Shown piece by piece: positions 8,443 to 39,589 of a stretch of DNA of 64,000 nucleotides; position 1 is the stretch's first letter, and each line of letters opens with the position of its first letter. The notes beneath the pieces were generated by a model. That model was not told the origin of the DNA, did no database searches, and saw only the letters and a list, made by a program, of their open reading frames with translations. A program made the position numbers and the translations under genes. This stretch comes from Alphaproteobacteria bacterium (GTDB taxonomy: Bacteria > Pseudomonadota > Alphaproteobacteria > Rhizobiales > JAKIUO01). The DNA is taken from the NCBI GenBank assembly GCA_024280895.1, contig JAJRPI010000019.1, positions 1-64,000 of the forward strand, read 5' to 3'.

Positions 8443-11400
8443 CTATATCTCGATCAATTCGCAGACCCCGGGCAGCACTTTAAGCTCGCTGATTTGAGCC
8501 GGAGAGGTATCGATGCCCTGCATGGTGGGCAGGAACACATCTTTACCCATATTATCAAGACGCAGGATCAATCGCAGCTTGCCATGCCCACCCCTCGATA
8601 CTCTTTGTGCGATTTCGGTAAGCGCTTCTGGCTTGTTGATGATCAATTGCACGCCTTTTTTGCTTCGCCCTCCCACCTGATCAATAGGTTCTGCCGACAA
8701 CAGCCGCAAACGAAGATTATCGCTGTCTGGATCGGCTGACACACGCAACAAAACAACAGTGCCAGGTTGTAGCAACTCGCGGGTCGCCTCCAGAGTTTCC
8801 GAAAACATAACCATTTCAAATTGCGTCCCCGCATCCGAAAAAGCGGCAAATGCGAACTTGTTGCCTTTCTTGGAGCGGCGTTCCTGCAAATAGCTCACCA
8901 CGCCGGCCAGCGTCCCTGCAATACCAGTATCGGGACGGCGCTCGCCTCGCCTGAACGGGATCAGATTATCCTTGGCCTTTTGCGCTTCCTTGGCTTTATT
9001 GCGCTGCACCTGCTCTTCAAGCGAAAGATCGGCATTACTTGGTTCTGGCGGCTCGACGGGTTCGCTAGCCTTCTTGTCACGGAACGCCTGCTTTTGTATT
9101 TCGACCCGCTCCACGAAATCAAGATAGCTCTCAACCTTTAATGAGGCGAGCAATTCAACATATTCATCAAGGGGATGGCCAGACAGGTAAAAACCAACCG
9201 CATCGGCTTCCTTGTTGAGAATTTCCCTTGGCACCCAGAGCTTGGCATCACGCAGTTTTAATTCCGGGGTCTCGTCCCCGCCACCAAACAAGGAGGTCTG
9301 GCCGCTATTTTGGTCGCTGGCGGCGCGATTGGCACTGGCCATGATCAAATCAACATTGCCATGAACGGTAGCGCGCTCGATGCCAAATTGCGCAAACGCG
9401 TCAGCAGCCGCGAGCATTTCCAACGTCCGCTTGTTGATTAGTTTTGGATCAACACGATTGGCAAAATCAGCCAAATCCTTGAAGGCTCCATTTTCATCGC
9501 GCTCAAGGCAAAGCTGCTCCATAGCCTCCGCCCCGACATTTTTCAGCGCGGCTAGCGAATATCTAATGCCCATCTCACCCGATTTTGTGGCCTGAGGAAT
9601 AAACTCGGCGGTTGAGAAATTGATCGATGGCGGTAACATCTCGATCTTCATCGCGCGTGTTTCTTCAAAAAACAGTTTGACCTTGTCCGTATTGCCCTGA
9701 TCTAGCGTCATGATGGCAGCCATGAATTCAACGGGGTAATTGGCTTTCAAAAAAGCCGTCTGATAGGCCAGCAAAGCGTAGGCGGCGGCATGAGACTTAT
9801 TGAACCCGTAGCTGGCAAATTTTGCCAACAGGTCAAAAATCGTTTCTCCATCTTTCCTTGAAACACCGCGCTCAAACGCCCCGTTCACAAAGCTTGGCCG
9901 TTGTTGATCCATTTCGGCGGCAATTTTCTTACCCATGGCGCGACGCAGCAAATCGGCTTCGCCAAGCGAGTACCCGGCCAGCTCCTGGGCGATCTGCATC
10001 ACCTGTTCTTGATAGATGATGACCCCATAAGTCTCATTGAGCATGGGAGCCAGCTTGTCATCAATATAGACAATTTCCTCGCGCCCGAACTTGCGCTCGA
10101 TATAGGTAGGAATATTGTCCATGGGACCCGGGCGATAGAGCGAGACCATGGCGATAATATCTTCAAAACGATCGGGTTTTAGCTGTTTGAGGCTTTCACG
10201 CATGCCCGTACTTTCCAGCTGGAACACCCCGATGGTATCACCTCGCGCCAGTAGTTCATACGAGGCTGGATCATCCAGCGTATCGCCCGTAAAGTCGACG
10301 TGCCCACCGCCCTGCTTGATAAATTGCAAGGCCTTTTGAATAACAGTGAGGGTTTTAAGGCCCAAAAAGTCGAACTTGACGAGACCGGCCGGCTCCACCC
10401 ATTTCATATTAAACTGAGTAACCGGTATATCTGATCGCGGATCACGGTACAGCGGCACCAGTTCATCTAGTGAACGATCTCCAATCACCACACCAGCCGC
10501 ATGGGTCGAGGCGTGTCGGTAAAGTCCTTCAAGCCGCTGCGCAATATTCAGCAGATTTCGAACAACCGGTGCTTCTTCCGCCGCTTCCTCAATTTTGGGC
10601 TCTTCCGCCATCGCCTCGGCCAGCGAGATCCCTATAGTATTGGGAATGAGCTTTGACAGACGGTCCACCTGCCCATAAGGCATCTGCAAGACGCGGCCCA
10701 CATCACGAATAACAGCTTTCGCTTGTAATTTTCCAAAGGTAATAATCTGGGCAACCCTGTCGGTCCCATATTTATCTTGCACATAGCTGATCACCTCATC
10801 ACGTCGATCTTGACAAAAATCAATATCAAAGTCGGGCATGGACACACGTTCGGGGTTGAGAAAACGCTCGAACAACAAACCAAAGCGCAACGGGTCCAGA
10901 TCGGTGATGGACAGCACCCAGGCGACAACAGACCCAGCCCCCGACCCACGTCCCGGGCCTACCGGAATATCCATTTCCTTGGACCATCGAATGAAATCGG
11001 CAACGATCAGAAAATAGCCGGGAAATTTCATACGCGTAATGATACCAAGCTCATAATCGAGACGATCCCAATAGTTTTGTTCCTCATAGCCCTTGGCGAT
11101 ACCGTCCACCTCAAGGCGTTTTTTTAGCCCCTCGCGGGCCTGGCGCTCCAACTCGGCGGCTTCAATTTTTTCCTGCTGCTCGGGTGTTGCATTCTCGCCG
11201 CCGCCAAAGCGCGGCAAGATCGGATCACGCAACAAGGGGCGGTAGGAGCATCTTCGGGCAATGATCTTGGTATTCTCAATCGCTTCGGGCAGATCGGCAA
11301 ACAAGGTCTCCATTTCGCCTGCGTCTTTGAAATAATGTTCTGGAGTAAGACGGCGGCGGTCTTCCACAACCACATAGCTACCATCAGCAATACAAATCAG

Positions 11401-15785: not shown

Positions 15786-15799
15786 TTGATCTATGTCAT
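15786..15799 (+). promoter_or_regulatory. FNR/FixK-like box upstream of ccoN
   Basis: TTGATCTATGTCAT has one perfect TTGAT half-site and one imperfect GTCAT half-site against the TTGAT-N4-ATCAA consensus. A weak -10 candidate lies at 15820-15827, placing the box centre near -40 to -41.5, the activator position for this family. It lies in the 329-base proS-ccoN divergent gap, where nothing else was recognised. cbb3 operons are typically controlled by FNR or FixK, so the site is plausible but rests on sequence alone. Confidence 0.55.
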
Positions 15800-21577: not shown

Positions 21578-23787
21578 TTCCCTCGACGCAAAAACGCAAT
21601 ATTGCCGCGCAAAGACCGTCTACTGAAAAACAGCAATCGAGCAAACGCCGTCTTGACCTTGCTGTTGATGGCATCACCTGTCCCGCCTGCATGACGACCA
21701 TTGAACAAGGCATAGGCAATATGCCGGGCATTGGCGAGGTTGTGCTTAATTACACAACGCATCGGCTGACCATCGAAGGACATGAAGGCGTTCCTAATCT
21801 CGAAGCCGTCATCGGCAAGCTTGATCAACTGGGCTATAAGGGGCGCCCCTACGAATTAAGCACAGCTGGCCTGGCGCAGGTACGGGCCGAAAAACATCTT
21901 TTACGCGCTATGGCCGTTGCTGGATTTGCCTCTGCCAATATCATGATGATGTCGGTTGCGGTCTGGTCGGGCAACAGCTCTGGCATCGAAAGCTCCACAC
22001 GTGATCTGTTCCATTGGATATCGGCCATGATTGCGCTGCCTGCCGTCACCTATGCGGGGCAACCATTTTTTCTCAGCGCTTTTGCGGCCCTCAAAGGGCG
22101 TCATCTCAACATGGATGTACCCATCTCGCTGGCGGTCATCCTGGCGCTTGCCATGTCTCTCGCCCAGACCATTTCCCACCAGCCCGATACCTATTTTGAT
22201 TCTGCGGTCATGTTGTTGTTCTTTTTGTTGATCGGCCGTTATCTTGATTTACGCGCCCGCAACCGTACAAGAGACCTTGGACAAAATCTTATGGCGTTGC
22301 AAAAGCCAACGGTCACGAGAATAGCCAATGACAACACAATGCAAGAATGTCCCGTATCCCTCATTCAACCTGGCGATCGCATCCTTGTACCTATGGGGGC
22401 GCGCATCGGCATTGATGGGGTCATTTCACAAGGATCGAGCGAACTTGATACCAGCTTGATCACTGGGGAAAGCACACCAAGCACAAAAATCGTTGGTGAC
22501 AAGGTCTATGCGGGCACCCTTAATCTTGGCGCTCCCTTGCAAGTGATCGCGGATGCTGCGGGAGACAATACCCTGCTGGCGGAAATCAGCGCGCTCATGG
22601 ACAAGGCCATGCAAAAACGCGGGAAATATGTGCGCCTAGCCGACAAGGCTGCGTCTCTTTATGCCCCCGTTGTACATCTTGTGGCTCTGCTTACGCTGAT
22701 CGGCTGGCTGCTCTTGTCAAATGGTTGGCAACCCTCCCTGCTGGCCGCTATTGCCGTTTTGATCATTACTTGTCCTTGCGCGCTGGGCCTTGCGGTGCCG
22801 GTGGTTCAGGTAGTGGCGACAGGAGCTTTGTTTCGTCGCGGTATCCTAGTTAATGCGGGAGATGCGCTTGAGCGTCTTGCGCTAATCGATACCATTGTCT
22901 TTGACAAAACCGGCACCCTAACTGAACCAGATCCGGCCATTCTCAACTTAAAAGAGATTAGCAGTAATGATCTGCATGATGCCGCACGGCTTGCCCGCTC
23001 CAGTCATCATATTCTGGCCCGAGCCATCGCTCCTCATGCCAAACGCTCCGCGCTTATTCCTGACGTCAAGGAAATTGCTGGTAGCGGCGTCATGGGCCAG
23101 CTTGGCGGCCAACAATTGAGACTTGGATCGCAAGCGTTCTGCATGAATGACACCAGTGAGCAACAGCCCTCCCCCAACCCCAAAGAACAGCGATCCGAGC
23201 TATGGTTTCGCCGTAACAACGAGCCACCAATACGATTCCAATTTCATCAAGACCTCAAAGAAGACGCCGTTGAGACCATTCGTTCTTTACGCTCACTTGG
23301 CTTCAAGCTTGAGATCTTATCGGGAGATAATTCTGGTGCCGTTGCCAAAGCCGCGCAAACCCTTGGCATCGAGACTTTCAGATCGCAGGTCAAACCAAAA
23401 GACAAAATTGCTCATATAGAAAGCCTGCGTGCAGCTGGTGCCCATGTCATGATGATCGGCGATGGGCTCAATGATGCCGCTGCCCTGCAGGCCGCCAGTG
23501 TATCGGTTGCCCCAGCCAGCGCACTTGATATTACCCAAGGGGCGGCCGATATTGTCATCGTCGGCAATCAGCTAGGACCATTGCTCGCACTCATCACGAT
23601 TGCCCGCAAGGCCCGCAAACTGATCGTGCAAAATTTCTACTTCGCCGCGCTCTACAATATTGTTGCCATTCCACTGGCCGTACTGGGCTATGTGACCCCT
23701 TTGCTTGCCGCCTTGTTCATGTCTGGTTCGTCCATCGTCGTTACGCTCAATGCGCTTCGCGCTCAACTGATACGAAAGGAACAATAA
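21574..23787 (+). CDS. ccoI: Cu(+)-exporting P-type ATPase CcoI/FixI
   Basis: This slow copper exporter supplies copper to the CuB site of the cbb3 oxidase. The 737 residues contain an N-terminal metal-binding domain with CPAC at 36-39, the actuator TGES at 297-300, the membrane CPC at 400-402, the phosphorylation site DKTGT at 444-448, and GDGLNDAAAL in the ATP-hinge domain. There are about eight helices. It overlaps ccoH upstream and ccoS downstream by a few bases. The CPC motif and context favour copper over other metals. Confidence 0.97.
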   Translation: MIPSTQKRNIAAQRPSTEKQQSSKRRLDLAVDGITCPACMTTIEQGIGNMPGIGEVVLNYTTHRLTIEGHEGVPNLEAVIGKLDQLGYKGRPYELSTAGLAQVRAEKHLLRAMAVAGFASANIMMMSVAVWSGNSSGIESSTRDLFHWISAMIALPAVTYAGQPFFLSAFAALKGRHLNMDVPISLAVILALAMSLAQTISHQPDTYFDSAVMLLFFLLIGRYLDLRARNRTRDLGQNLMALQKPTVTRIANDNTMQECPVSLIQPGDRILVPMGARIGIDGVISQGSSELDTSLITGESTPSTKIVGDKVYAGTLNLGAPLQVIADAAGDNTLLAEISALMDKAMQKRGKYVRLADKAASLYAPVVHLVALLTLIGWLLLSNGWQPSLLAAIAVLIITCPCALGLAVPVVQVVATGALFRRGILVNAGDALERLALIDTIVFDKTGTLTEPDPAILNLKEISSNDLHDAARLARSSHHILARAIAPHAKRSALIPDVKEIAGSGVMGQLGGQQLRLGSQAFCMNDTSEQQPSPNPKEQRSELWFRRNNEPPIRFQFHQDLKEDAVETIRSLRSLGFKLEILSGDNSGAVAKAAQTLGIETFRSQVKPKDKIAHIESLRAAGAHVMMIGDGLNDAAALQAASVSVAPASALDITQGAADIVIVGNQLGPLLALITIARKARKLIVQNFYFAALYNIVAIPLAVLGYVTPLLAALFMSGSSIVVTLNALRAQLIRKEQ

Positions 23788-24011
23788 TGGATTTCGTATA
23801 TGTGCTTCTACCACTAGCACTTCTACTTGGATTTATTGGTCTTATGGCCTTTATGTGGACGTTGAAGTCGGGACAATATGACGATCTTGATGGCGCAGCC
23901 TGGCGCGCCATTATGGACGATGATCAAGAGCTCAACCCCAACTTCAAACAGCCGCCCAAAGACGAAAATAATCCACAGGCTCCTGTTGATAAACGCGATA
24001 CTCAGGCTTGA
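23787..24011 (+). CDS. ccoS: cbb3 oxidase maturation protein CcoS
   Basis: CcoS is a small single-span membrane protein needed to insert cofactors into CcoN. The 74 residues start MDFVYVLLPLALLLGFIGLM, a helix, followed by the typical FMWTLKSGQYDDLDGAAWRAIMDDD and a charged tail. The ATG shares one base with the ccoI stop. It is the last gene of the locus; the next strong terminator is about 500 bases downstream. Confidence 0.95.
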   Translation: MDFVYVLLPLALLLGFIGLMAFMWTLKSGQYDDLDGAAWRAIMDDDQELNPNFKQPPKDENNPQAPVDKRDTQA

Positions 24012-24510
24012 TCCCTGCCCGGCTATCAATTGCCTCTGGCGAAATTCTTATTTTCGTCTAATATAGGATCTATTGATAAGGCTCTACTCACCCTGTGTGA
24101 GGTGTTTCGATCGAGTAAGTCGTAGACATAATCTTGATCCTTAGCAATTATTTGGCTTTTAAGTGATTTCCGCAATTTCACTGACATCGCCGAATATTTC
24201 ATGGAAGTGCACGCCATGAAAACCCAGTACCGCGTATCAGTATCAAATTGTTGTGTAAAATTGTAAGTCGCGTAAGTAATTGTAAGGGCTGTTTTGTGCG
24301 TACATTATTACGAACAGCCTGAGTAAACAGAGTGGTATTTGTACCCATCAGTACGTAACGTAAAACTGTTGTACTTATGTAGTCCGCGTATTTTAAGTGT
24401 AGTAGGTTGTGTTTGAAACGGTCTTTTAAGACTTGTTCAAGAGTTCGTATTGAATTGTTCATGTAGTGGCATATAAAATATAATACCCACCCGCGCATGA
24501 TATCTAATAA
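24012..24510 (+). other. Unexplained region after ccoS, possible 3' UTR or RNA gene
   Basis: No convincing protein gene was found in this AT-rich stretch. It contains several small hairpins on the plus strand: GGCTGTT/AACAGCC with an inner CGTA/TACG pair around 24287-24319, GTCTT/AAGAC near 24421, and CTTG/CAAG near 24433. It ends at a strong terminator. It may be the cco 3' UTR or a structured non-coding RNA. A 99-residue minus-strand frame here lacks a ribosome site and starts next to the terminator, so I do not call it. Confidence 0.35.
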
Positions 24511-24546
24511 AAAGGACAGGGAACCGCGAACCCCTGTCCTTTTTTA
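24507..24546. terminator. Bidirectional intrinsic terminator
   Basis: An 11-bp perfect stem, AAAGGACAGGG (24511-24521) with its complement at 24532-24542, is followed by TTTTTTATTT on the plus strand and TTTTTATTAG on the minus strand. It probably ends plus-strand transcription from the cco locus or from an RNA gene just before it. Confidence 0.9.
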
Positions 24547-24640
24547 TTTGCTCCATTTTTCTTTTCTACAAATCCAGACATGTAATGTTTAATACTGCAA
24601 AACTCTGCACGCTCTTATTTCTTTGATGATCTGGAAAAGT

Positions 24641-24670
24641 AAAAAAAACCCCGCCATAAAAGGCGGGGTT
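24641..24670 (-). terminator. Intrinsic terminator, minus strand
   Basis: AACCCCGCC (24647-24655) pairs with GGCGGGGTT (24662-24670) across six bases and is followed on the minus strand by eight U residues. On the plus strand no U-run follows. It therefore ends a minus-strand transcript that begins to its right, where no conventional gene is present. A second perfect hairpin (GGTGCA/TGCACC, 24680-24697) lies just before it. Confidence 0.9.
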
Positions 24671-24713
24671 GTAAGTTGTGGTGCAAATGAATGCACCGGC
24701 TTGCGAGAGGAAG

Positions 24714-24800
24714 CTAGTCAAACAGAAAATTCTGCAGGATCGTCTGCCAGTAGAACCACATAAACCGCAAAGGGTTGATGATGATTGAGGCAGTATCCAT
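24714..24800 (-). CDS. Candidate 28-residue protein, FNR-box associated; function unknown
   Basis: The ATG at 24800 opens a frame of 28 codons, beginning MDTASIIINPLRFMWFYWQ and ending in QNFLFD. It is rich in aromatic residues and could associate with membranes. An ATATTA-type -10 element (minus strand TATATT, 24828-24823) and an FNR-like box lie upstream, and a strong terminator follows, giving a predicted transcript of about 175 bases. There is no clear ribosome site. In the same frame the open sequence extends upstream to a TTG at 24884 and includes a hydrophobic LDLLIILVLVAGF stretch, so a single-span protein of about 50 residues is the competing model. It may instead be a small regulatory RNA. 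I know of no matching family. Confidence 0.35.
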   Translation of the reverse strand: MDTASIIINPLRFMWFYWQTILQNFLFD

Positions 24801-24851
24801 TGGGAAACCAGCAACCAGGACCAATATAATCAGAAGATCAAGTGATCCGAA

Positions 24852-24865
24852 ATGACTTATATCAA
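24852..24865 (-). promoter_or_regulatory. FNR/FixK-like box upstream of the tiny minus-strand gene
   Basis: On the minus strand the sequence is TTGATATAAGTCAT, the same TTGAT-N4-GTCAT pattern as the box before ccoN. Its centre is about 30 bases from a TATATT -10 element, putting it near -42, the class II activator position. The remaining part of the gap up to 25078 shows nothing else recognisable apart from the start region of the next gene. Confidence 0.45.
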
Positions 24866-25078
24866 TAGATCGCAATATTCGCAATCATTAATATTTGGAT
24901 GTGACCTTTTGCGCATTCGGCGGCTTCCCTCTTCCAAAATAAGTCAGTTGGCCGATGATACATTACAAATGAGATATAATGGATTATTGAAGCCACCCTT
25001 ACCCTATTCGCCATAATTGAAACAACAAAATTGCAAAAACTCTGAACATTATACTAAAAAACCGGAGCCCTGACCGAA

Positions 25079-26320
25079 ATGCTTTCATATTACAAGATCT
25101 TTATCCATAGCTCGATGGTCGCTATATTGTTCTTTTCGCTGTCCGCGCCGCTCATGGCAGCGCCAAATCCCAAGCACAAAGCAATTACCAGCAATCAATC
25201 TGACCCAAGAACAGGCGAGCTCGAATATGAACGCTCGAAACGCTTACTATCGGCCATTGATGAGATATTAAAAGATGCCGCCACGATCCGTCAGGATGCC
25301 CGCAAGCTCCCCAGCAAACATGAGTTCTCTATTATCACCCCACCGTGGATCGAGACTAGAGAAGACCGCCAGATCAAGGTCAACAAGCTGCTGGATGCTG
25401 CTCTTGAAATTGTAACTGAGGTTCCTATTGTCGAACTACAAAAAAAGCTACGCGGCAACCGCAGCAATATCAAAAAAATGGAAGATCAAATCGCCCTCTT
25501 GCGCGAAAAACAGCTCGACGCCCCAACCGACGCGTTCCTCCCCGGCTACATCACCGGTACGGTTGCCTCAATTGATGAGAAAATCATCGATATCAAAGCC
25601 AGAATTGCCGGCAACAAAAAACAGATTCTCAAGATAAAAAAGGAAATTTCCAACGGGTTGAAGAAAAGTGGCGTGAAGATCAAGGAAGCTCAGCTGGATA
25701 TATTGCTTGGCAGCGTGATCGGTGGAGATCTCGTTAAACTTGTGGCAGCCTTTGAAGCCGCGCGGGCCATTAATGATCGTCTCAGCTTTTTAATGGATAA
25801 AAACGGTGAAACCCTGAGCGCCGCCCGGCGTTATTTCGCCATGCACGCGTCTTTATTTGCTTTGCTCGTGCACGCACAAGAGCTGGTCCTTAACAAAATA
25901 GATACTGTCTATCTGCCTCGCCTTGGCGCCATTATCAAAGATATCCGGCAAGCCAGGGGCGAAACCCACCAACTGTTACGCGCTCGCAACCGCAACGATC
26001 AGCGCAAGATACTGCAGGCCAATCTCAAGTCGCAAACTTTTTCTGAAAAAGTCGCCAAGACTTATCGCAACTATCTTTTGACCCAGCGTGATCAAATGTC
26101 CAAAGCACGCCAGCGCACTCTCAAGGATCTGCGTATTGCCGACAATACTTATCTCACAGTCGAAGCCAGTTTTCAGCTACGTTCCTTGATCAAGGATGCC
26201 AGTACCAGTTTTGAAGCGATCCGCAAACTAGAAGCGCCTGGGTTTGATAAAGTCTTTCGTAACAAAAACTTGAAGCGAGAGTTTGAAAACCTGACGAGCA
26301 AGTTGACACCTACATCATAA
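25079..26320 (+). CDS. Secreted coiled-coil protein of unknown function
   Basis: I do not recognise this 413-residue protein. It has a clear signal peptide (hydrophobic core VAILFFSLSAPL, likely cleavage after ALMA-type residues near 27), then a mostly helical, Lys/Arg/Glu-rich chain with heptad-like patterns at about 95-200 and 290-370. A less charged middle part (about 205-280) contains LLGSVIGGDLVKLVAAFEAA and SAARRYFAMHASLFALLVHA. There are no cysteines or enzyme motifs that I can see. GGAG lies 12 bases before the ATG. It stands alone, convergent with mgtE. A periplasmic structural or surface-related role is only a guess. Confidence 0.85.
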   Translation: MLSYYKIFIHSSMVAILFFSLSAPLMAAPNPKHKAITSNQSDPRTGELEYERSKRLLSAIDEILKDAATIRQDARKLPSKHEFSIITPPWIETREDRQIKVNKLLDAALEIVTEVPIVELQKKLRGNRSNIKKMEDQIALLREKQLDAPTDAFLPGYITGTVASIDEKIIDIKARIAGNKKQILKIKKEISNGLKKSGVKIKEAQLDILLGSVIGGDLVKLVAAFEAARAINDRLSFLMDKNGETLSAARRYFAMHASLFALLVHAQELVLNKIDTVYLPRLGAIIKDIRQARGETHQLLRARNRNDQRKILQANLKSQTFSEKVAKTYRNYLLTQRDQMSKARQRTLKDLRIADNTYLTVEASFQLRSLIKDASTSFEAIRKLEAPGFDKVFRNKNLKREFENLTSKLTPTS

Positions 26321-28218: not shown

Positions 28219-29445
28219 TTAGAACTTGATGCGAGCGCCAGCCATGATCTGATTGACGTTACTTGTAGCAACATTATCATTATCCCAGCTGCGATAAGCG
28301 ATATAGAGCTCGGTAGCTGCACTATCGAAGTGCTGTACTACACCCAGACCCCACATTGTGGTGTCCCAGTTCCCAGCTGCAAGAACTCCATTATCACCAT
28401 CATAGTCATATTCGCCATATTCGGCGTAGATGCTGGTATTTCCCATGCCAGTAAAGTCACGGTTTACACCACCCTGGAGATGCCAGTATTGCTTGTCATA
28501 GATGTCAGCGGCATTACCTGCATTGTTGAAACCGCCGTCGTTTTCGGTACCAGCTGCAAAAGCAATGTTAAGGCCTGTTGGTGTATGCATCAACGAAGCT
28601 GAACCTGTGACATTCGAACCGTTAGTTCCATCATCATAGAAGGTATAACCAATGCCAGCCGCAATGCGGATAGGGCCAAATTCTCCGGCATAACGAAGAG
28701 CCATATCCCAGCCATCAGTGTCATAGTTAAGAGCACCAAAAGCAGTTGGGCCATTAAGATCAACCCAAGCTACGGAGTATGTGAACCCGCGCAGTGTTGG
28801 TGATACCCAAGCGATGGTCTCATGAACACCTTGCTCAAGATTGAAACCATTCAATGACGTAGCATTCCAAAGATTTGCCTCAGAAGTACCTGTTACACCG
28901 CGACCACCAAGAGAGATCTCGGCAACGCCATCGGTTGGAACATAAGCATGACCTATAACAAAAGTACCGAGTCTGGCATTTTTGAAGTAGATGAAGTTTT
29001 TGTCAGTCTTCAATGGTGAAACAAAACCAGGACCATGACTTGCGCCAGCTTGTGTAAGCGTGCCGCTGTTACGATCTTGTGTAACGCGAGCCCGCAGAAC
29101 ATAGCCAACGGTCCAAGTGCTTGTTAGAGCCGCGCTGCCAGCAAACTGGAAGCGTGATCCGGAAACACCATGGCCACTTGAATAAAATTCATCTTTGCCA
29201 TTTTCGTCTTCAATCCAGCCGATGTCGCGAGCGACCCAACCTGAGATTGTCAATGAAACCTTACGATTTCCTTTGCGAGCTGTTGTTGCTTCAAGTTCTG
29301 CAACGCGCTCTTCGAGGTCTGCACAACAGTCACCGCCAAGATCGGCAGCTACTGCTGGTGTCAGAGCCATTCCGCCCATCAGAAAACCAGCTGCAGCTAC
29401 GAGAGCCAACGGGCTGGATGTCTTCTTGAGTCCCCCAATAGTCAT
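28219..29445 (-). CDS. Porin, alphaproteobacterial Porin_2-like family (copy 1)
   Basis: This is an outer-membrane general-diffusion channel. The 408 residues have a signal peptide ending in PAVA-ADLGG, a CC pair and short coiled coil (DLEERVAELEATTARKGNRK), then alternating amphipathic beta strands, and end in an aromatic residue (GARIKF), as required for outer-membrane insertion. The start has GTGGAGAA upstream. It is clearly a paralogue of the next porin: they share the signal region, the SGWVARDIGWIED stretch, the RYAGEFGPIRIAAGIGYT stretch, the last residues and even bases beyond the stop, so a tandem duplication is likely. Porins of this type are abundant in Hyphomicrobiales. Confidence 0.93.
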   Translation of the reverse strand: MTIGGLKKTSSPLALVAAAGFLMGGMALTPAVAADLGGDCCADLEERVAELEATTARKGNRKVSLTISGWVARDIGWIEDENGKDEFYSSGHGVSGSRFQFAGSAALTSTWTVGYVLRARVTQDRNSGTLTQAGASHGPGFVSPLKTDKNFIYFKNARLGTFVIGHAYVPTDGVAEISLGGRGVTGTSEANLWNATSLNGFNLEQGVHETIAWVSPTLRGFTYSVAWVDLNGPTAFGALNYDTDGWDMALRYAGEFGPIRIAAGIGYTFYDDGTNGSNVTGSASLMHTPTGLNIAFAAGTENDGGFNNAGNAADIYDKQYWHLQGGVNRDFTGMGNTSIYAEYGEYDYDGDNGVLAAGNWDTTMWGLGVVQHFDSAATELYIAYRSWDNDNVATSNVNQIMAGARIKF

Positions 29446-30368: not shown

Positions 30369-31580
30369 TTAGAACTTGATGCGCATACCAGCAAGGATCT
30401 GCTGAACATCGCCATCTACGATATTATCATCTTCCCAGTTACGATACGCAACATACAATTCTGTTGATGCTGAGTTGAAGTTCTGAACGATACCCAGACC
30501 CCACATGACAGTATCACCTGTGCTAACTGCATTACCATCGTCATAATCACCATACTCACCATAGAGGCTTGTATTTCCAACGCCGAAGAAGTTCTGGCTG
30601 ATGCCACCTTCTACATGCCAGAACTGACGATCACTGGTGTCAGCGGCGAGCGTGTTAACACCACCGTCAAGCTCAGTACCAGCAGCAAATGCGACGTTCA
30701 AACCGGTTGGCGTATGCATCAAGGTGACTGAACCCATGACATTTGAACCATCTACAGCAAAGCCGCCTGAATTGGTAGAATCATCGGTGGTTGTATAACC
30801 GATACCTGCAGCGATACGGATTGGACCAAATTCTCCAGCGTAGCGAAGAGCCATATCCCACAAATCGACGCCTGAGTCATCTGTCGCAATGTCATTTTGG
30901 TCAACCCATGCAACGGCGACGGTAAAGCCAGCGATTGTTGGTGAGACATAGGAGATCAGGTTTTGAGCACTGCCCTGCTGAAGGTCATAGGAATTAATGC
31001 CAGCAACACCGTTCCAGCCATTACGACCAGCTGCATCGCCAGTGATGCCGCGACCGGCGAGAGAGATGTTAGCAACTCCATCGGTTGGAGCATATGTGAA
31101 ACCAGTTGTGAGAGTACCCAGTTGAGCATGTCTCAAAAAGACAAAGTTTTGATCAACATTTGTGGTTCTGGCAGTGTTAACTTGGCCAGCTGCTCCAATA
31201 GAACCTGTAAGACCACCTGCTGCACGGAGGCGCAGACGATATCCAGCTGTCCAGTTTGCAGACATTTTGGCGCTACCTGTGAACCAAACGCGAGATCTGG
31301 AGGGTCCATGACCGGCTGCATAGAATTCGTCACGGCCTGAGCCATCTTCGATCCAACCAATGTCACGAGCGACCCAACCTGAAATTGTTAGTGAAACTCT
31401 GCGATTTCCCTTGCGAGCAGTTGTCGCTTCAAGGTCAGCTACGCGCTCTTCGAGATCCGCACAGCAATCACCGCCCAAATCAGCAGCCATAGCTGGTGTA
31501 AGAGCCAAACCGCCGATAAACATACCTGCAGCGGCTACGATGGCCAGGCTGCTTGTTGACTTTAAAAGTCCCCCAATCAT
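30369..31580 (-). CDS. Porin, alphaproteobacterial Porin_2-like family (copy 2)
   Basis: This 403-residue porin is the tandem paralogue of the one at 28219-29445. It has a signal peptide ending in PAMA-ADLGG, the same CC pair and coiled coil, beta-strand repeats, and the C-terminal aromatic residue in GMRIKF. GTGGAGAA stands before the ATG. The most divergent parts are the loops after residue 85 and around 130-200, where channel size and surface exposure are set, so the two copies may differ in permeability or be expressed under different conditions. It has its own terminator, so each copy is a separate transcript. Confidence 0.93.
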   Translation of the reverse strand: MIGGLLKSTSSLAIVAAAGMFIGGLALTPAMAADLGGDCCADLEERVADLEATTARKGNRRVSLTISGWVARDIGWIEDGSGRDEFYAAGHGPSRSRVWFTGSAKMSANWTAGYRLRLRAAGGLTGSIGAAGQVNTARTTNVDQNFVFLRHAQLGTLTTGFTYAPTDGVANISLAGRGITGDAAGRNGWNGVAGINSYDLQQGSAQNLISYVSPTIAGFTVAVAWVDQNDIATDDSGVDLWDMALRYAGEFGPIRIAAGIGYTTTDDSTNSGGFAVDGSNVMGSVTLMHTPTGLNVAFAAGTELDGGVNTLAADTSDRQFWHVEGGISQNFFGVGNTSLYGEYGDYDDGNAVSTGDTVMWGLGIVQNFNSASTELYVAYRNWEDDNIVDGDVQQILAGMRIKF

Positions 31581-39357: not shown

Positions 39358-39589
39358 TCTATATCCTCACATCTGTCTATTAAATAATGTTACATGCCGT
39401 AACAAAGAGAGAAGTTAGCACTATTTTGTAGGAATTCAAATCAGTTGCTGCATTGATCACCATCAATGCCATAAACCGCCCCCAAAAGCATCAATTGGAA
39501 GGCTGGACACACCAAATCAATGCTGCCATAGTCACGCAAAGCTGTGAGCGAGCCAGAACCTCGCGCAAAATCGACAAGGATTGGCACAT

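Follow-up and report, generated by a model that had tools for sequence, protein, structure and literature searches.

A predicted small RNA with a conserved FixK/FNR-type promoter beside the cbb3 oxidase operon of an alphaproteobacterial genus

Oxygen-controlled small RNAs (sRNAs) have been well studied in Escherichia coli and Pseudomonas. FnrS, of E. coli and Salmonella, is transcribed from an FNR-family promoter, is made without oxygen, and represses mRNAs of aerobic metabolism (PMC8139620). In Rhodobacter sphaeroides, the low-oxygen sRNA PcrZ is tied to an FNR-type regulator and represses genes that the same regulators activate (PMC8139620), and the promoters of two uncharacterised sRNAs, RSs0019 and RSs2461, contain FnrL ChIP-seq sites (PMC4263372). 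SicX is an Anr-dependent low-oxygen sRNA of Pseudomonas aeruginosa that opens the ribosome-binding site of ubiUVT and thereby activates it; its locus was at first annotated as encoding a small protein (PMC10247376). In the literature that we searched, none of the sRNAs characterised in alphaproteobacteria was under FixK-type control. Judged from its sequence, the locus described here is a credible candidate for a new sRNA of known type, which belongs to no Rfam family and encodes no peptide.

The window, by which we mean the whole stretch of 64,000 nucleotides that was analysed, is part of contig C27 of an alphaproteobacterial draft genome (G000). A cbb3 oxidase operon lies on its plus strand, with genes that we take, from their own sequences and gene order, to be ccoN, O, P, G, H, and I. 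The sRNA unit occupies the minus strand between ccoS and a gene for 413 amino acids, which has no NCBIfam match and no significant Pfam match (Table 1). Elsewhere in the window, two porin-like paralogues, closely similar at their N termini, lie in tandem on the minus strand at 28219-29445 and 30369-31580. For comparison within the genus we used four relatives (G001 to G004), making five genomes with G000; the public relatives of the genus are metagenome-assembled genomes (MAGs) labelled Hyphomicrobiales or Alphaproteobacteria. A 301-bp stretch of the locus matched all four (E values of 9.5e-103, 5.1e-86, 1.8e-32, and 6.4e-22), and its position is kept, since the 413-aa gene adjoins the sRNA in five of five genomes and ccoS does so where contigs allow. 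On the promoter side, the conserved blocks are the upstream palindrome, the box, and the promoter. In the body of the RNA, they are the 5' GGUUGCUGGUUU segment, GACUAGCUUCCUCUCGCAAGC, the GGUGCA hairpin, the CACAACUU linker, and the terminator. The sRNA is intact in three relatives, and a second G002 contig terminates within another copy. In G001, only the first ~120 nt are retained (contig C80), next to a 91-aa open reading frame (ORF) that presumably encodes an IS3-type transposase; the 3' half was not found in this assembly. Because of the transposase-like frame at the break, and because ccoS and the GUA-rich element discussed below are on a different contig (C636), either this copy was truncated or the assembly is rearranged. 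Consequently, the RNA is dispensable in G001, or the assembly is wrong.

Table 1. Features of the sRNA locus and its surroundings, with window coordinates
Feature	Position	Strand	Basis or remark
ccoN-upstream box TTGATCTATGTCAT, same variant as the sRNA box	15786..15799	+	pattern match; identical in G004 and G001
ccoS	23787-24011	+	confirmed by TIGR00847
Predicted sRNA gene, 176 nt	24641..24816	-	genus conservation, fold z -5.25, covariation
Intrinsic terminator with U8 tail (stem 24670-24647, T8 tail to 24641)	24641..24670	-	sequence, genus alignment
Hairpin GGUGCA-loop-UGCACC	24680..24697	-	fold prediction and alignment
Pyrimidine-rich linker CUUCCUCUCGC, candidate seed	24703..24713	-	identical in four intact copies
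28-codon ORF (MDTASIIINPLRF...), judged not coding	24714..24800	-	absent as conserved frame in relatives
Conserved UUCCCAAUGG, mostly unpaired, possible second seed	24797..24806	-	alignment and fold
-10 element TATATT	24823..24828	-	sequence; kept in genus alignment
FixK/FNR-type box TTGATATAAGTCAT	24852..24865	-	pattern match; conserved in genus
Upstream palindrome ATTGC-N7-GCRAT, about -61	24869..24885	-	conserved in genus alignment
413-aa gene	25079-26320	+	divergent from sRNA

The locus had earlier been described, in a sequence-only reading, as a tiny gene or small RNA with an FNR-like box, a TATATT -10 element, and class II activator spacing. All three promoter features are present and conserved in the genus. 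With a predicted start at 24816/24817, the box is centred at -42.5/-41.5, and a centre near -41.5/-42.5 is the class II position for CRP/FNR-type activators; the predicted promoter thus has the conserved, class II-placed box of an FNR/FixK-regulated sRNA. By itself, this geometry could be due to chance, because a box with a class II-spaced -10 element was found twice in 464 kb of G000, and its significance comes from conservation in the genus. A loose pattern, TTGAYNNNNRTCAW, would be expected 2.1 times in the window and occurs 7 times. The sRNA box differs from the FNR consensus by two letters and is kept in the four intact copies. It reads TTGATATAAATCAT in G003, where an ATCAT half-site places it nearer the consensus, and TCGATATATGTCAT in the truncated G001 copy. 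The sharing of this box variant with ccoN, also pointed out earlier, was confirmed. The palindrome upstream of the box is the sole exact match to its pattern in the window. Further strong FNR/FixK-like boxes occur at 10810-10823 (TTGACAAAAATCAA) and 39453-39466 (TTGATCACCATCAA).

Seven G000 proteins exceed the HTH_Crp_2 cut-off, and NCBIfam comparisons were made for five of these. The best fit of one, L119, is to FixK, at 141 bits against 115 for FnrL and 97 for Fnr; the FixK score lies below the curated FixK cut-off (the cut-offs are 300 for FixK, 300 for FnrL, and 228 for Fnr). L119 has no N-terminal cysteine cluster of the FNR kind. Because the best-fitting regulator is FixK-like and lacks this cluster, FixK-type control, which would be indirect to oxygen, seems likelier than control by FNR. 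Of the FNR-type promoter that was first proposed, the conserved CRP/FNR-family box stands, while a FixK-type activator fits better than FNR itself. We infer that the sRNA is probably switched on at low oxygen.

The terminator with an eight-U tail, read earlier about 175 bases downstream of the promoter, does close a 176-nt unit. This unit is intergenic and has its own promoter and intrinsic terminator, and its RNA is conserved without a conserved reading frame, both of which are marks of a trans-acting sRNA gene. Compared with shuffled sequences, the fold has a z score of -5.25 in G000 and of -4.6 to -6.2 across the four intact copies. The predicted common architecture runs from a closing helix and an inner stem through a small hairpin and the linker to a further hairpin and the terminator, so that the two hairpins of the earlier description are replaced by three stem units and a closing helix besides the terminator. 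In the four-sequence alignment, pairing in the predicted fold holds in 94.9% of cells, and sliding the pair partners lowers it to 36-51%. Five base pairs are changed on both sides, compared with a shuffle mean of 1.8, a count reached by 1 of 500 shuffles. As only four related sequences make up this small set, the covariation supports rather than proves the fold. The linker is constant in the four intact copies, and the sequence of the inner hairpin drifts.

No Rfam family reached its gathering score within the stretch. Sub-threshold matches group at the 3' end of the sRNA, and the best of these in bits was the mmgR/suhB RNA (RF00519), which scored 25.3 bits where the gathering score is 41; membership in this family was rejected. 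The same holds for FnrS, which did not appear among the Rfam matches either at gathering or when E values up to 10 were allowed. A covariance model (R1) was built from the four intact sequences, whose homology rests on sequence-search matches. It gives 163-202 bits on these sources, by construction. Elsewhere, in 150 genomes of the order and 289 of the class, it reaches no more than about 31 bits. Many of the R1 matches outside the genus span much less than the RNA length, and from scores and spans we judge them to be terminator-like chance matches. A 17-mer from the linker region was found at 23 loci in GTDB, and only the three MAGs of the genus exceeded 20 bits with R1. The covariance search that had been suggested as a check found no homologue beyond the genus in over 400 alphaproteobacterial genomes, a set that included no other genus of the same family. 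As far as tested, the sRNA appears to be restricted to the genus.

Our best reading, to which we would give a probability of roughly 70%, is a low-oxygen, trans-acting sRNA that is driven by a FixK-type regulator and pairs through its linker with ribosome-binding sites. A FixK-type CRP/FNR protein would activate the class II promoter of a free-standing sRNA gene, divergent from the 413-aa gene, and the sRNA would rise together with the cbb3 oxidase as oxygen falls. The transcript would fold into a multibranch 5' domain with an invariant closing helix, the CUUCCUCUCGC linker, a small hairpin, and the terminator, the U tail of which could bind Hfq; an hfq gene is present in the genome. The linker would pair in trans with purine-rich ribosome-binding sites of mRNAs that are unwanted at low oxygen, and block their translation. 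Expression, the activator, dependence on Hfq, the seed, and every target are predictions in this scheme.

Shortly before ATG, the pattern GAGAGGAAR (the reverse complement of the linker) occurs 44 times in the five genomes, compared with 14 for a reversed control. However, the pattern also resembles an ordinary ribosome-binding site. The best single target candidate, and a possible one, is soxX; the SoxX and SoxA identities were confirmed by NCBIfam. In four genomes its ribosome-binding site can form 12 contiguous pairs with the linker, counting G-U pairs; in the fifth and most diverged there are 9, though the leader there is otherwise unalignable. The soxX start is the only identified gene start that recurs at 12 contiguous pairs, G-U allowed; the remaining recurrent linker matches involve very short frames or a repeated transposase-like gene. 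Among 411 start regions sampled from G000, the soxX pairing, at -19.8 kcal/mol, ranks in the top 2.2%, and shuffled linkers yield a similar pairing distribution over these regions. Since ribosome-binding sites are conserved anyway and shuffled linkers score similarly, this pairing argues only weakly for soxX. Another candidate, fdhA, was set aside, being only within the top 19% of the 411 regions. At the 20 loci examined for the possible second seed, UUCCCAAUGG, there was no convincing gene-start site.

Between ccoS and the sRNA is a second conserved, apparently non-coding element (24190-24548, plus strand), which matches in five of five genus genomes and ends with its own terminator-like hairpin at about 24515-24546. 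GTA occurs 21 times in 231 nt of it, compared with a mean of 5.1 and a maximum of 13 in 2000 shuffles. In 724 kb scanned, all of the 230-nt windows with at least 15 GTA among those listed were at this locus. Its overall fold is not stronger than that of shuffles (z -0.68), and no Rfam family fits. Ahead of the element, a conserved block contains an inverted repeat, AGTGA-N11-TCACT (24162-24182), possibly an operator. Conceivably, the FixK-driven sRNA and a converging GUA-rich RNA of ~350 nt could form a two-RNA module that tunes the electron supply of the oxidase at low oxygen, an extension that we consider unlikely.

Other explanations of the locus must be weighed against our best reading. 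The sequence-only reading had allowed for a protein product, either a 28-residue aromatic-rich peptide or a single-span membrane protein of about 50 residues, and had raised the prospect of a new accessory subunit of the oxidase. Frames of 28 and 56 codons are indeed open in G000. In the relatives, however, the 28-codon frame stops after MDTA in G004 and G001, stops early in G002, and is lost in G003, and the 56-codon frame, which contains it, breaks at identical places. A Pfam search of the reading frames at the sRNA locus gave no match. With stops or frameshifts in every relative, both the peptide and the membrane protein were rejected, and no conserved ORF is left that could be a cbb3 accessory subunit. 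Of the box, terminator, and frame on whose conservation in close relatives the proposal had been staked, the first two are kept and the third is not. Because every frame is broken in the relatives while the RNA fold is kept, a small RNA is indicated rather than an oxidase subunit, and we regard a small protein gene as very improbable. A short ORF rich in aromatic residues can, as this locus illustrates, be misread as a new subunit when it lies beside an oxidase.

A genuine sRNA could also act mainly by binding a protein or by sequestering another RNA, instead of pairing with ribosome-binding sites. Helices do hold much of the conserved sequence, and there is no general excess of linker complementarity to gene starts. 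However, an invariant, pyrimidine-rich linker that is largely single-stranded has the look of a pairing seed, and pairing with the neighbouring GUA-rich element, when tested, was no better than with shuffles and was not conserved. This mode of action seems rather unlikely. Somewhat more doubtful still is a genuine sRNA with an oxygen-independent promoter, a box that arose by chance or serves the 413-aa gene, and another factor in charge, for example one that binds the palindrome at -61. The chance rate of the box with class II spacing and the conservation of that palindrome would suit such an explanation, but the box is kept in all four intact copies, matches the variant conserved before ccoN, and comes slightly nearer the consensus in the most diverged species.

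If our best reading is confirmed, it would link the cbb3 oxidase switch with the post-transcriptional control of further respiratory genes, among them possibly those of thiosulfate oxidation (soxX). Among known RNAs, mmgR/suhB is also an alphaproteobacterial sRNA, but the G000 RNA falls below its gathering score. Three further comparisons are by description only. RSs0019 and RSs2461 resemble the G000 sRNA in having FNR-family promoter sites; PcrZ can be likened to it as well, though the main driver of PcrZ is PrrA and its targets are photosynthesis genes; and SicX has a similar history of misreading as a small protein. The FnrS-like regulatory RNA that had been among the earlier proposals is the branch that held up, with promoter, fold, linker, and terminator conserved at the same locus in the genus. 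FnrS and the G000 sRNA are alike in FNR-family promoter logic, and the activator here is probably of the FixK type.
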